DNA of 64,000 nucleotides from Pseudomonas baetica (GTDB lineage: Bacteria; Pseudomonadota; Gammaproteobacteria; Pseudomonadales; Pseudomonadaceae), in contig NZ_PHHE01000001.1 in NCBI RefSeq assembly GCF_002813455.1, positions 4,522,001 through 4,586,000 of the forward strand, written 5' to 3'. Position 1 is the stretch's first letter; every line of letters begins with the position of its first letter. The translations under genes and the position numbers were made by a program. The notes beneath the pieces are model-generated. The model was not told where the DNA came from and ran no database searches. It saw only the letters and a program-made list of their open reading frames with translations. Positions 34,581 through 39,267 of this stretch are shown in pieces.

Positions 34581-35138
34581 ATGTCCGCTGATCTCGAGCA
34601 TATCCGTCAAATCATGCGAGAGGCTGACTGCCTGTACACCGAGTCTGAAGTCGAGGCTGCCATCGCTCGCGTCGGTGCACAAATCAACGAACAACTGGCC
34701 GACAGCAATCCTGTGGTGTTCTGCGTGATGAACGGCGGCCTGATTTTCTCCGGCAAACTGCTGACTCATCTGCAATTCCCGCTGGAAGCGTCTTACTTGC
34801 ACGCGACCCGTTATCGCAATGAAACCAGCGGCGGCGACCTGTTCTGGAAAGCCAAGCCGGAAGTCTCGTTCATCGACCGTGACGTGCTGATCATCGACGA
34901 CATCCTCGACGAAGGTCACACCCTGGGCGCGATCATCGACTTCTGTAAACACGCTGGCGCGCGCCAAGTGCACACCGCCGTGCTGATCGACAAGGACCAC
35001 GACCGCAAGGCGCGTCCTGACCTGAAAGCCGATTTCGTCGGCCTGCCGTGCATCGACCGTTACATCTTCGGTTACGGCATGGACTACAAGGGTTACTGGC
35101 GCAACGCCAACGGGATCTTTGCCGTTAAAGGCATGTAA
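34581..35138 (+). CDS. hpt: Hypoxanthine-guanine phosphoribosyltransferase
   Basis: A 185-residue purine salvage enzyme with the PRPP motif VLIIDDILDEGHTLG and a GLPCIDRYIFGYGMDYKGYWRN-type C-terminal loop (shown in short blocks). It converts hypoxanthine and guanine to IMP and GMP. The ATG at 34581 follows GGAGAG by 5 bases. It is transcribed alone; a REP palindrome follows. Confidence 0.95.
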   Translation: MSADLEHIRQIMREADCLYTESEVEAAIARVGAQINEQLADSNPVVFCVMNGGLIFSGKLLTHLQFPLEASYLHATRYRNETSGGDLFWKAKPEVSFIDRDVLIIDDILDEGHTLGAIIDFCKHAGARQVHTAVLIDKDHDRKARPDLKADFVGLPCIDRYIFGYGMDYKGYWRNANGIFAVKGM

Positions 35139-35154
35139 GACCCCCGCGCTATCC

Positions 35155-35260
35155 CCTGTGGGAGCGAGCCTGCTCGCGAAAGCGATCTTTCATTCAGCAT
35201 AAGTGTTGAATGTGAAATTGCCTTCGTCGGAACGCCGCCCGGAGCAAGCCCGCTCCCACC
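35155..35260. repeat. REP pair with degenerate right arm
   Basis: The left arm is CCTGTGGGAGCGAGCCTGCTCG (read in parts, 35155-35180). The right arm (about 35222-35260) keeps GGAGCAAGCCCGCTCCCAC but has lost the inner match. Confidence 0.85.
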
Positions 35261-35330
35261 GTTGTTTTGTGTGTGCTGATCCATCTGTGATACCCATGCT
35301 AGAGTGCTCGGCCCCTCCCCGGAGCCTGTC

Positions 35331-35810
35331 ATGAGCCTCTTGATCCGCAGCTTTGCCGCCCTGTTGCTGACCCTCAGCCTGCCTCTGTCCGCCGCCCCGA
35401 TGCACAGCCAGTTCCTGCCGCCGGACGATCTGACCCTGCGCGATGCCGAGCCCGAGCATCAGCAACTGCTGCAAGTCACCGATTATTCAGTAGTGGTGGG
35501 CGCGCAACGCCAGTCCAACCAGCAGCCGATTCCGGTCACCTCGTCACTGTTAATCCGTCTCAAAGGCAAGTCCCTGAACAAGGGCGCGACGATCAATCAG
35601 GTGCTGGTCAGTTTCGATGGCGAAAGCAAAAGTCTGAAGAAACCGGTGTATGACGACAAAGGTAAAACCCTGACGCTGTTTTATCCTTTGGCGCAGTACC
35701 GCGTGGTGATCGATTTGCTGCGCAATGACACTGTCTATGTGCAATTCCTCAGCTACGCCAACGGCCATATCTGGGCTGATTTGCACACCGGTAGCGTGCG
35801 CGCGCGTTGA
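35331..35810 (+). CDS. Exported protein of unknown function
   Basis: A 159-residue protein with a signal peptide (hydrophobic residues 7-21, cleavage after LSAAP-like residues) and a beta-rich mature part without cysteines or recognisable catalytic motifs. It is found at the same place in related Pseudomonas genomes (between hpt and the PA4642-like gene). I do not recognise its family. It is likely periplasmic. The ATG at 35331 follows CCGGAG by about 6 bases. Confidence 0.7.
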   Translation: MSLLIRSFAALLLTLSLPLSAAPMHSQFLPPDDLTLRDAEPEHQQLLQVTDYSVVVGAQRQSNQQPIPVTSSLLIRLKGKSLNKGATINQVLVSFDGESKSLKKPVYDDKGKTLTLFYPLAQYRVVIDLLRNDTVYVQFLSYANGHIWADLHTGSVRAR

Positions 35811-35872
35811 GCGCGGCGGCGGGGCAGGGGTAAACTGCCCGCCCGTGAAATGTCTGCGAGCTGGAGTCGGCA

Positions 35873-36160
35873 ATGCGTAAAGATAAGAAACAAGTGATTG
35901 GTGACGAGATCGGCGATGAGCAGATCAAGCTGTTCCTCGATTTTGAACCGGTCGACGCCACCTCGCCGTCGCTGCACAAACTGGTCAAGGCCTACCGTGG
36001 CCTGCGGATTGATGACTTTGAGCGGTTTCTGGGCTTCTTCGTTGCGGCTGGCTACGACGTCGATGGCAAGGACGAACAGGGCAAGACCTTCGTTGAGCTG
36101 ATCGCCGATCAGCGTAACGCCCCGGAATACATCGAGCTGATCGAAAAGTCCCGCGGTTAA
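35873..36160 (+). CDS. PA4642-family protein
   Basis: A 95-residue, mostly helical, charged cytoplasmic protein: MRKDKKQVIGDEIGDEQ at the N-terminus, FLDFEPVDATSPSLHKL, then YRGLRIDDFERFLGFF. It matches a small conserved Pseudomonas family of unknown function placed next to mqo. The insertion sequence lies 69 bp downstream and does not touch it. Confidence 0.8.
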   Translation: MRKDKKQVIGDEIGDEQIKLFLDFEPVDATSPSLHKLVKAYRGLRIDDFERFLGFFVAAGYDVDGKDEQGKTFVELIADQRNAPEYIELIEKSRG

Positions 36161-36174
36161 GGTCGAAAGACAAG

Positions 36175-36229
36175 GTCAAAAGATCGTAGCCTGCGGCAGC
36201 TCCTACATGGGATTTATGGTGACCCTGTA
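36175..36229. repeat. Left part of REP pair interrupted by the IS
   Basis: 36175-36208 is one complete arm (AAAGATCGTAGCCTGCGGCA, CTCCTACA). 36224-36229 (CCTGTA) is the first six bases of the opposing arm, which resumes at 37668 with GGAGCTGCCGAAGG. Removing the IS restores a normal REP pair. Confidence 0.85.
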
Positions 36230-36234
36230 ATTGG

Positions 36235-36246
36235 ATGGACTCGCCC
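36235..36246. repeat. IS left subterminal inverted repeat
   Basis: ATGGACTCGCCC, the inverted copy of 37651-37662. A third copy, in the right-end orientation, occurs at 36300-36311 and overlaps the transposase start codon. Confidence 0.85.
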
Positions 36247-36309
36247 AAGCCGAGGCGTCAATGCGCCACGGTGGCAGTCTAAACAGCCATCGACAGCGAG
36301 GGCGAGTCC

Positions 36310-37395
36310 ATGAAAAATCATAGTTCGAATGATCAATCCCTGTCTTCTTCCGATTTGTCGGCCTGCACAACTTTGGCGGTAGATCTGGCCAAACAGGTCT
36401 TTCAGGTCGCTGGTGAAGATGTCCTCGGCCAGGTGCGCTATGAACAGCGGATCAAGTCGCGTGAGGCGTTTTATGAGTTTCTCCAACAGCTGCCGCCTCA
36501 TGTCGTGGTTTTGATGGAGACCGGTCCGGGAGCTCAAGCCTGGGCCCGGCAGTTGCAAGACAAAGGTAATCTGGCGCGGATTCTTCCAGCCGGTTTGGTG
36601 ACCACACACCGCAGTGGGCCTAAAAATGATCGCAACGATGCGCTGGCGATTCTGCGCGCTGGTCGCGATGAAAAAATCTGCGCGGTACCGGTCAAAAGCG
36701 TTGCTGCGCTGGCAATGCAAGCGCTGCATCGCGCCCGTCAGGGCTATGTGCGTCGACGCACGGCGGTCAGCAATCAGATGCGCGGCCTGCTGCTCGAGCA
36801 CGGCGTGGCCTTGGCGCAGGGCGATGTTGCGATCAGTCAGAAGATTCCGCGGGTACTGGAAGATGCGACCCAGCCACTGCCTGGCCTGCTGCGTGAATTG
36901 ATCGACGAACTGTTGGCTGAGTGGCGCCATTTGGGCGAGCGCATCGGCGTGTTGACGGGCCGCCTGGAAGTGGCCGCTAACGCCGACATGACAGCGAGGC
37001 GACTGATGACCGTGCGCGGCATTGGCCCAGTCATTGCCACGGCACTGGTGGCCAAGGAAACCAACCCTGAGCGGTTTCCCAATGCCCGCAAGTTTGCCGC
37101 GTACTTTGGCATGGTGCCTGACCAGCACAGCAGCGGGCAGACGGTCCGGCTGGGCGACATGACCAAGCGAGGTGATGTTTATTTACGCAGCTTGATGATC
37201 CAGGGAGCCCATTCGGTCCTGCAACAACTGCGACCTGATTCCCTGCAACCCGATGACCGCCGCTTGTTGCGGTGGATGAGCCGACTGGGCCGTAAGGAGG
37301 CTGCGATCAGGTTAGCCAACCGCAACCTACGAATCGTCTGGGTGCTTCTACAGAATGACCAGTCTTATCGTCGTCATGCTGGTAATGGTCAGTAA
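36310..37395 (+). CDS. IS110/IS1111-family transposase
   Basis: A 361-residue RNA-guided-type recombinase. The RuvC-like N-terminal domain has VDLAKQVFQVA (first Asp), METGPGAQAW (Glu) and KNDRNDALAIL (Asp pair). The C-terminal Tnp_20 domain has MTVRGIGPVIATAL and YFGMVPDQHSSGQ with the catalytic-type Ser, then MTKRGDVYLR. The reading frame is intact, so it may be active. Its ATG lies inside a copy of the element's inverted-repeat sequence (36300-36311), which can pair with the left repeat 53 bp upstream. Confidence 0.93.
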   Translation: MKNHSSNDQSLSSSDLSACTTLAVDLAKQVFQVAGEDVLGQVRYEQRIKSREAFYEFLQQLPPHVVVLMETGPGAQAWARQLQDKGNLARILPAGLVTTHRSGPKNDRNDALAILRAGRDEKICAVPVKSVAALAMQALHRARQGYVRRRTAVSNQMRGLLLEHGVALAQGDVAISQKIPRVLEDATQPLPGLLRELIDELLAEWRHLGERIGVLTGRLEVAANADMTARRLMTVRGIGPVIATALVAKETNPERFPNARKFAAYFGMVPDQHSSGQTVRLGDMTKRGDVYLRSLMIQGAHSVLQQLRPDSLQPDDRRLLRWMSRLGRKEAAIRLANRNLRIVWVLLQNDQSYRRHAGNGQ

Positions 37396-37439
37396 GCGAC
37401 GATAAGCCACTGAGCGACCGAGTTCTGCCACCGAGGTAC

Positions 37440-37650
37440 TGACTGTCCGACCCTTTGCTGAAAAAAATTGACCCCAGGTAAGACCGGCGTGGATTGATGC
37501 CTAAGCTCCTACTGGCCTTCGAGGCCTGACTGTAATCGGCATGCCACGAGCTCTTCCAATTTTGGCCAGAGGCCGAAGACGGCTTCCACGAATAGGCCTA
37601 ATACATAGATGCAACGGGGCGACAGTTTTCAAAAAACGGGTAGACAGTGG
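37440..37650 (+). ncRNA. Candidate bridge RNA (seekRNA) of the IS
   Basis: The downstream non-coding end folds into guide-bearing loops. Loop 1: the stem CGTGG/ATGCC (37488-37492, 37497-37501) pairs with GGCAT/CCACG (37538-37542, 37544-37548). Inside, AGCTCCTAC (37504-37512) is antisense to the right target half GTAGGAGCT, an apical hairpin GGCCT-TCG-AGGCC follows (37514-37526), then CTGTA (37530-37534) is the sense left target half. Loop 2: TCCAATT (37555-37561) is antisense to the IS left end AATTGGA, and ATACATA (37601-37607) is the sense IS right end. The exact RNA ends are not determined. Confidence 0.72.
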
Positions 37651-37662
37651 GGGCGAGTCCAT
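37651..37662. repeat. IS right subterminal inverted repeat
   Basis: GGGCGAGTCCAT, five bases inside the right end of the element. Confidence 0.85.
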
Positions 37663-37667
37663 ACATA

Positions 37668-37694
37668 GGAGCTGCCGAAGGCTGCGATCTTTTG
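37668..37694. repeat. Right part of REP interrupted by the IS
   Basis: GGAGCTGCCGAAGGCTGCGA and onward continues the REP arm whose first bases CCTGTA are at 36224-36229, on the other side of the element. Confidence 0.85.
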
Positions 37695-37706
37695 CTTTTC
37701 AAGGCC

Positions 37707-37749
37707 ATAAAAAACGCCCCGCACTCACTGAGTACGGGGCGTTTTTTAT
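37707..37749. terminator. Intrinsic terminator of mqo (bidirectional)
   Basis: A CGCCCCG / CGGGGCG stem flanked by A6 and T6 tracts, 10 bp past the mqo stop codon. Confidence 0.9.
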
Positions 37750-37758
37750 GCCGCAAGA

Positions 37759-39267
37759 TCAAGCGTAGCTTGGGGTCTCGCTGTTTTCTTCAACCAGTTC
37801 CAGCGCGATGTTGTTCTGCGCGTTGATCTTGCGATACAGCGCAGCATCGGTTTCCAGCACCTTTTCACGGGCCGGGAAGATTTCCGCCAGTTTGCCGGCC
37901 CACTCGCCCTTGGCCTTGCCCGGGAAGCACTTCTCGATCAGCTCGAGCATGATCGAAACGGTCACCGAGGCACCCGGCGATGCGCCGAGCAGGGCGGCAA
38001 GAGAGCCGTCCTTCGCAGCGACCAGTTCGGTACCGAATTGCAGGATGCCGCCTTTTTTCGGGTCTTTCTTGATGATCTGCACCCGTTGGCCGGCGACTTC
38101 CAGGCGCCAGTCTTCGGCTTTCGCCTCAGGGTAGAAGCGGCGCAGGGATTCCAGACGCTGCTCCATCGACTGCATCACTTCGCTGACCAGGTACTTGGTC
38201 AGGTCCATGTTGTTTTTCGCCACGGCCAGCATCGGGCCGATGTTGCCGGCGCGAACCGACATCGGCAGGTCCATGAAGGAGCCGTGCTTGAGGAACTTGG
38301 TGGTGAAACCAGCGTATGGTCCGAACAGCAGGGATTTCTTGCCATCGACCACGCGGGTGTCCAGGTGCGGCACCGACATCGGTGGCGAACCCACGGCTGC
38401 CTGGCTGTAAACCTTGGCCTGATGGTGTTTGACCACTTCCGGGTTGTCGCAACGCAGCCACTGGCCGCTGATCGGGAAGCCGCCGAAGCCTTTGCTTTCT
38501 TCGATGCCCGAAGCCTGCAGCAATGGCAGGGCTGCGCCACCGGCGCCGAGGAAGACGAATTTGGCATCGACTTCACGGCTGCTGCCGCTGTTGACGTCCT
38601 TGATGCTGACGGTCCAGCCGCTGCCGTTACGCTTGAGGCCAGTGACGCGCTTGCAGTATTTGACCTGGGTGTCGGGTGCGCTGGTCAGGTGCTTGAGCAA
38701 CTGATTGGTCAGGGCGCCGAAGTTGACGTCGGTGCCGTTCATCACGCGGGTTGCGGCGAGTACTTCGTCCGGCGAGCGGCCCGGCATCATCAGCGGCATC
38801 CACTCGGCCATCTTGGCTTTGTCTTCGGTATATTCCATGTCGGAGAAAGCGTGGTGCTTGCTCAACACGTCGAAGCGGTCCTTGAGGAAGGAAACGCCTT
38901 TGTCGCCCTGGACGAAACTCAGGTGTGGCACCGGGCTGATAAAGGATTTGCACGAGCCGAAGGTGCCTTTTTTGGTCAGGTACGACCAGAACTGCTTGGA
39001 CACTTCGAACTGGGTGTTGATGTGCACGGCTTTCTTGATGTCGACGCTGCCGTCGGCAGCCTGCGGCGTGTAGTTCAGCTCGCACAGGCCGGCGTGGCCG
39101 GTACCGGCATTGTTCCACGGGTTGGAACTCTCCGCCGCGCCGGAATCCATCAGCTCGACAACTTCCAGCTTGATCGCCGGATCGAGCTCTTTGAGCAGCA
39201 CGGCAAGGGTGGCACTCATGATGCCGGCCCCAACCAGTACTACGTCGACTGCTTCGTTATGCGCCAT
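37759..39267 (-). CDS. mqo: Malate:quinone oxidoreductase
   Basis: A 502-residue FAD-dependent peripheral membrane enzyme oxidising malate to oxaloacetate with electrons passed to quinone, replacing NAD-malate dehydrogenase in pseudomonads. The FAD loop is [16 protein letters not shown] near residue 10. [20 protein letters not shown] (read in parts) and GLGGASPGAS-like [10 protein letters not shown] near the end are typical. It is transcribed alone; by position it matches P. aeruginosa mqoB (PA4640). Confidence 0.96.

Follow-up and report, generated by a model that had tools for sequence, protein, structure and literature searches.

An insertion sequence of the IS1111 group in the genome of Pseudomonas baetica very probably encodes a bridge RNA (seekRNA) between the stop codon of its transposase gene and its right end. 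The element lies in the 64,000-nt stretch of DNA that we analyzed (hereafter, the window). Its target preference, the changes of guide that go with changes of target, the changes of guide that go (less evenly) with changes of the element ends, and the structure of the RNA were deduced by comparing sequences, and our account of transcription, processing, pairing, and catalysis is modeled on published work on ISEc11, ISPa11, and IS621.

The element spans 1438 bp on the + strand (36228–37665), as delimited by its ends, its subterminal inverted repeats, and the rule that IS1111-group elements extend 7 bp to the left and 3 bp to the right of these repeats (PMC11187229). The 7-bp left-end extension TAATTGG (36228–36234) is followed by the left subterminal inverted repeat ATGGACTCGCCC (36235–36246), and the right subterminal inverted repeat GGGCGAGTCCAT (37651–37662) is followed by the 3-bp right-end extension ACA (37663–37665), all on the + strand; with membership defined by subterminal inverted repeats of 11–13 bp, this is the layout of the IS1111 group. 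Between the repeats, on the same strand, lies the gene for a transposase of 361 aa (36310–37395), which is of the DEDD/IS110 type according to its Pfam matches (PF02371, Transposase_20, E = 3.4e-23; PF01548, DEDD_Tnp_IS110, E = 1.3e-10) and to residues D25, E70, D107, D110, and S274, which did not vary in an alignment of 15 sequences (that of the window among them) and among which the catalytic residues presumably lie. The upstream side is short (75 bp from the left repeat to the start codon, 36235 to 36310), and a long non-coding region follows the gene (270 bp, counted from the last codon through the right repeat). An RNA downstream of the transposase gene and guides in the order antisense then sense do not fit the layout of the IS110 group (IS621-type); by its sequence the element is a member of the IS1111 group of the IS110 family, the family being clear from the transposase. 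A relative with 94% identity is present in Pseudomonas sp. ERMR1:02, and a search of plasmids at E 1e-60 returned four relatives of about 39% identity.

The P. baetica genome (6.9 Mb, a single contig) holds nine copies of the element, all of them in a single target and a single orientation, with TGTA to the left of the insertion and GGAGCTG to the right, the right flank being TAGGAGCTG in 9/9 copies. The copy in the window interrupts a REP, the left half of which, CCTGTA (36224–36229, + strand), shares its TA with the left end of the element, and the right half of which begins TAGGAGCTGCCGAAGGCTGCGATCTTTTG (37666–37696, + strand). An inverted partner REP head, CAGCTCCTACA, lies upstream on the − strand (36197–36207; match at C1:4558177–4558205, minus strand), so that the target resembles a pair of REPs. 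The junction TA is common to target and element, and the 7/3-bp rule yields ..CTG/TAGGAGC.. as the target. Since the tetranucleotide GTAG is characteristic of REP ends (PMC3733652), the guide is predicted to read the REP head. The word TGTAGGAGCTGC occurs 186 times in the genome and its reversed control pattern 6 times. The earlier note, made from the sequence of the window, had predicted a REP-specific target and proposed to check whether all insertions are at CCTGTA/GGAGC. The REP prediction is borne out, no copy in this genome lying at an unrelated site, and the GGAGC side holds throughout, but CTGTA was found at only 5/9 insertion sites vs. TGTA at 9/9.

Within the non-coding region, the right target guide AGCTCCTAC (37504–37512, + strand), antisense to GTAGGAGCT, is followed by the left target guide TGTA (37531–37534, + strand), which has the sense of the target; both were included in the 53-element test described below. 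The right guide is exactly where the earlier note had placed it, as an antisense match to the REP. The left one had been proposed as CTGTA (37530–37534), and its position stands, whereas its five-base length does not, since it works as TGTA on the counts just given. Among 20,000 dinucleotide shuffles of 37440–37641, 4 contained AGCTCCTAC and 1716 contained CTGTA, so that CTGTA alone is weak evidence; no shuffle contained both.

Searches of 149 and 398 genomes of the genus (overlapping draws, own genome included) returned 10 and 14 genomes, respectively, with a match at the E-value limits used. The resulting copy set covers 13 genomes, own included, with at least 60 copies listed and 59 counted; one copy (L060) was left out of the count because its right end is duplicated, and its outer right flank, TAGGAGCCG, fits its own guide. 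A copy's own 9-nt target guide matched in 55/59 copies, and the remaining four (one each in genomes G275, G264, G046, and G139) had one mismatch; the mean guide–target match over the 59 copies was 8.93/9 for the guide of the same element and 7.67 for guides that differ from it. Left of the insertion, G precedes the shared TA in 60/60 listed copies of the 13 genomes (the presence of TA was a condition for listing a copy), and TGTA is present in 53/60, the other seven having CGTA or AGTA.

The RNA is predicted to be 151 nt long (37477–37627, + strand) and to form two consecutive loops that carry the guides, on the evidence of a consensus fold and of matches to a covariance model. The target-binding loop (37488–37548) is closed by CGTGG (37488–37492) with CCACG (37544–37548) and by ATGCC (37497–37501) with GGCAT (37538–37542), and the hairpin GGCCT-TCG-AGGCC (GGCCTTCGAGGCC; 37514–37526) separates its two guides; the donor-binding loop (37550–37612) is closed by GC (37550–37551) with GC (37611–37612) and contains inner helices at 37564–37567/37595–37598 and 37569–37575/37580–37586, all on the + strand. 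The hairpin and the four stem words are found at precisely the positions given for them in the earlier note. Energy folding of the window RNA was no better than that of shuffles (z = −0.84; 0.04, −0.34, and −0.94), and among the four stretches folded, the loop-1 stems were the minimum-energy fold only of the 71-nt one (37481–37551). Single-sequence folds being uninformative, the structure rests on comparison.

An alignment of 12 close RNAs, the window's included (154 columns), was folded with RNAalifold, which was blind to the proposed stems. It recovered both loop-1 stems, a four-pair inner hairpin, and a second loop that is closed by GC/GC and encloses both donor guides. In this alignment 96.1% of cells pair, compared to at most 47.4% in slid versions; the outer loop-1 stem has a compensatory change in 3/5 pairs, the inner loop-1 stem is invariant, and the fifth pair of the inner hairpin is missing in 6/12 RNAs. 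One of five measures on the unfitted 12-RNA alignment, the number of further pair types, was not above shuffles (8 vs. 8.3). A covariance model built from the 12 RNAs was run on the window and on 83 mostly distant loci, with transposases mostly 33–42% identical, and matched 41/83 loci at E ≤5 and 35/83 at E ≤0.05, with no match at the remaining loci. Eight close RNAs and 31 distant best matches to this model made up a 39-RNA alignment in which 22/28 pairs had changes on both sides and 90.4% of cells paired (slid versions: ≤38.7%), figures that are biased in favor of the structure because the alignment was fitted to the counted structure and drawn from chosen matches. In the same 39 RNAs, the outer loop-1 stem had compensatory changes in 5/5 pairs, 77.1% of cells in the inner loop-1 stem paired, and the donor-loop helices showed two-sided changes. 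On this comparative evidence, the conserved two-loop secondary structure of a seekRNA/bridge RNA is present; the earlier note had staked its reading on conserved structure in homologous elements, and both the RNAalifold stems and the covariance matches in distant elements provide it. A scan of 35000–39000 against Rfam at E up to 1 matched no bridge-RNA family. The same scan gave two sub-threshold Thr_leader matches, both over a hairpin near 37708–37756; at 37708–37756, directly after the REP, a strong GC hairpin lies between runs of A and T and looks like a two-way terminator.

For a test across the family, 80 loci from named genomes and the loci from the genus genomes gave 131 loci with a transposase match, 93 of which yielded both inverted repeats under a calling rule that demands TGGA/TCCA. 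Eight named loci (seven with a wrongly picked repeat, plus L074) and three further loci with short flanks or a repeat lacking an ATGGA start were removed, and the 82 that were left were dereplicated to 53 elements. For each element, we scored the longest match between its target or end and the non-coding region of the same element, and compared it with that of permuted partners in 20,000 permutations. The own partner scored higher for the right target half in antisense (6.83 vs. 4.96; z = 14.4), the left target half in sense (6.38 vs. 4.85; z = 12.7), the left end in antisense (5.81 vs. 4.94; z = 6.4), and the right end with core in sense (6.19 vs. 4.59; z = 11.9), and in each case 0/20,000 permutations reached the observed value. 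When the words were taken from the wrong strand, z was −0.1, −0.4, 1.3, and 1.8; the value of 1.8, for the right end, is borderline (reached by 922/20,000). The controls from the outer flanks had z = −0.5 and −0.2. In the best-fitting register, the guides had the order target-antisense, target-sense, donor-antisense, and donor-sense with median spacings of 25, 26, and 44 nt, and the own sum of runs was 24.5 vs. 17.3, with the order imposed and 12 permutations only. The antisense-then-sense order that the earlier note read in both loops is thereby supported across the 53 elements, and it is the order reported for the target loop of IS1111 elements (PMC11187229). Common descent could raise the scores of the donor tests, since ends are alike among related elements; the target tests are less exposed to this, as targets vary more from one element to the next.

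The left-end donor guide TCCAATT (37555–37561, + strand) is antisense to AATTGGA of the left end (36229–36235), and the right-end donor guide ATACATA (37601–37607, + strand) is a sense copy of the right end, where the word is repeated at 37661–37667. TCCAATT was present in 200/20,000 and ATACATA in 39/20,000 of the shuffles, and the two together in none. In a test with fixed columns, which used 27 of the 39 RNA rows (11 had no called ends, and L074 was dropped), the right-end guide agreed with the right-end extension and core base at 4/4 positions in 24/27 elements, over nine different combinations, and scored 3.89/4 vs. 2.40 when permuted (0/50,000); the left-end guide scored 4.33/5 vs. 3.42 (0/50,000). 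Without the close clade (n = 20, window kept), the right-end guide scored 3.85 vs. 2.47 (0/50,000; 17/20 at 4/4) and the left-end guide 4.25 vs. 3.56 (0/50,000; 9/20 at 5/5). Within the close clade, ATACATA and the right end are invariant, so that the clade is uninformative on the right-end guide and distant elements were used. The antisense donor guide varies there: a matching change is seen in genome G104 (TAATCGG with CCGAT), and mismatches are seen in four others. In G255 and G012 the left end TAATTAC faces CACAATG in the RNA, with the last two bases unpaired, and G012 has at least 7 copies and G255 at least 5 despite this mismatch; in G139 (TAATTGA) and G230 (TAATTGT) the guide fails at the base adjoining the inverted repeat. 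These mismatches suggest that the antisense donor arm of this clade tolerates mismatch or has protein help. Donor guides appear to match their own ends in the window and across the family, with the antisense arm inconsistent in the four close genomes. The assignment of ATACATA made in the earlier note is thus upheld; that of TCCAATT is right in its position and in its match within the window, but its link to the left end is loose in the closest clade.

These data bear on a reading that we consider unlikely, namely that the RNA is a seekRNA only, in which loop 1 picks the target, the transposase recognizes the ends via the inverted repeats, and the loop-2 matches are remnant or structural. It would accommodate the behavior of ISEc11, for which an 82-nt RNA was enough and was more efficient than the long form in moving a mini-IS (PMC11187229), so that a donor loop is maybe not strictly needed; the fact that the inverted repeats begin ATGGAC in most listed elements (the search itself demanded TGGA); and the constancy of ATACATA in the close clade together with an antisense donor guide that is not followed in four genomes. 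Against it stand the fixed-column result that the right-end guide follows nine right-end/core combinations (shared ancestry possible in part), the left-end guide that beats permutation in both the 53-element and the 27-element tests, and the two-sided changes in the donor-loop helices. The comparative result favors a role for the donor loop without settling it.

Across the 13 genomes compared, changes of guide go with changes of target. One guide base, adjacent to GCT, varies (A, G, or C), and the target base varies with it (T, C, or G), copy L164 of G275 being the one exception. Genome G129 has the guide AGCTGCTAC, and 6/6 of its copies are at GTAGCAGCT; TGTAGGAGC occurs 1801 times in that genome (reversed control: 109) and TGTAGCAGCTGG 86 times (control: 4), the word counted being the longer TGTAGCAGCTGG and not the 9-letter TGTAGCAGC, so that the two counts are not strictly comparable. 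The left target guide of G129, CCGTA, mismatches the T of TGTA in 6/6 targets. Genome G264 has the guide CGCTCTTAC, one base off GCTCCTAC in the core, and among the matches listed 5/5 copies are at TGTAAGAGCG in a different, longer intergenic repeat, 4/5 of them with an exact match; in this genome TGTAGGAGC occurs 941 times (control: 154) and intact TGTAAGAGCG 12 times (control: 5). The single copy in G046, about 60 bp shorter, has a GCTGC guide yet is located at GGAGC, with one mismatch.

Recognition of the REP sequence or hairpin by the transposase protein itself, with the RNA matches as relics of a captured flanking REP, would suit the finding that most close relatives lie at GTAG-headed palindromes resembling REPs, and other families also include insertion sequences that are specific for REPs (PMC1525189). 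We nevertheless regard it as highly improbable, given that guide differences predict which repeat is chosen in G129 and G264, even though both genomes are rich in TGTAGGAGC, and that 53 elements with different targets have two-sided matches in a shared order and spacing. Short matches arising by chance in non-coding DNA, to which the frequency of CTGTA alone in shuffles (1716/20,000) and the unremarkable single-sequence folds might point, are refuted by the 53-element permutations (0/20,000 per guide), the 39-RNA covariation, and the fixed-column donor test, and in the shuffles the two target words never co-occurred, nor did the two donor words.

Some further observations concern individual copies. 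The G264 copies L051, L058, L150, L151, and L152 lie in a long intergenic repeat, with left flanks alike over most of 300 bases, and on the right the repeat runs on as ..CGCTGTAAGAGCGAAACCATAGGTGGCCGTTACCGCAG.AATGGATATGTAC, where there is no GTAG REP head. In G255, a 73-bp tandem duplication of the right end (L060:2846–2932) leaves the outer end CATACATAGG joined to the element's own donor-loop GGCCTGATACATAG; L060 and a second copy, L056 (C1:1790302 and 1791947 for L056 and L060, respectively), have the same orientation and starts about 1.6 kb from each other, and REP-like GGCTCCTAC words lie in between.

In the mechanism that we propose for the bridge RNA, the element ends would join in a circle with the predicted junction ATACATAATTGG, and the joined ends would make a promoter, TAGACA–17 bp–CATAAT, with the −10 straddling the junction. 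The −35-like TAGACA lies at 37641–37646 (+ strand), 17 bp from a CATAAT that exists as a −10 only when the ends are joined; the −35 matches at 4 to 6 of 6 positions at 17-bp spacing in 12/13 genomes and is shifted by one base in G129. Such a promoter may explain the near-invariant TAAT/ACA in the clade. The transposase mRNA and the downstream RNA would be transcribed together, and the RNA would be processed into a structured molecule of about 150 nt. Loop 1 would then pair with both strands of the REP head, the right half via AGCTCCTAC and the left half via TGTA, loop 2 would pair with both strands of the joined ends, the left via TCCAATT and the right via ATACATA, and the DEDD/Ser recombinase would exchange strands at the shared TA, resulting in insertion without duplication and in one orientation. 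The target loop is 61 nt long, or about 75 nt if its 5′ lead and 3′ edge are counted; judged from the lengths of the 151-nt RNA and the 61-nt loop, a long form would comprise both loops and a short form the target loop only.

The seekRNAs or bridge RNAs of IS1111 elements are already known, that of the REP-targeting ISPa11 included (PMC11187229, PMC11208160), and the element itself is ordinary. ISPa11 (IS1111 group, P. aeruginosa) likewise has a Pseudomonas REP target, an RNA downstream of the transposase gene, and antisense-then-sense guides, and two RNA sizes were bound to its transposase (PMC11187229); it is also one of six elements for which pairing with target and donor was examined manually (PMC11208160). 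Its RNA was measured, whereas the one described here is predicted, and the two are likened by description and not by guide letters. ISEc11 (IS1111 group) has a long RNA of 154 nt and a peak RNA of 82 nt, comparable to the 151-nt RNA and its target-loop part of ~75 nt, and it shares the 7-bp left extension and has a published junction promoter that the one predicted here would fit; it differs in having a short linear target that is not a REP, and the parts of its description covered mention no donor loop. IS621 (IS110 group) is alike in its two loops, target and donor, and in its REP targets (PMC11208160), but the RNAs of the IS110 group are mostly in the left end, upstream of the transposase gene, and the inverted repeats are of 2–3 bp; in ISEc21 (IS110-type), the order of the target guides is reversed (PMC11187229). 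ISPpu9 and ISPpu10 of P. putida are also multi-copy, REP-specific members of the IS110 family, with 7/7 copies of each in REPs, but they are inserted between REP bases 9 and 10, and 2-bp direct repeats are reported for them (PMC1525189).

RNAs of about 80 and 150 nt were found bound to IS1111 transposase, with the role of the long form described as still to be established (PMC11187229), and the two 2024 papers differ, one presenting a short target-seeking RNA and the other a two-loop bridge RNA, with manual inspection of its pairing in six elements, three from each group (PMC11187229, PMC11208160). In the literature listings and passages searched, we found no systematic test of donor-loop co-change for IS1111. 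What this work adds is such a test across the family, together with cases of natural retargeting. The co-change of loop-2 guides and ends across 27 to 53 elements argues for selection on the donor loop and points to a possible function of the long RNA, and the family supplies natural guide changes with matching new targets. We lean slightly toward a fuller reading in which the ~150-nt RNA, and not the abundant ~80-nt one, is the functional bridge, its end-recognizing loop 2 co-evolving with the terminal and core bases across very diverged elements and the inverted repeats acting as a handle for the protein, and in which point changes of the guide re-home Pseudomonas lineages from REP GGAGC to REP GCAGC or to a longer non-REP repeat at GTAAGAGC. 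If this is true, the element follows the repeat families of its host by editing its own guide.
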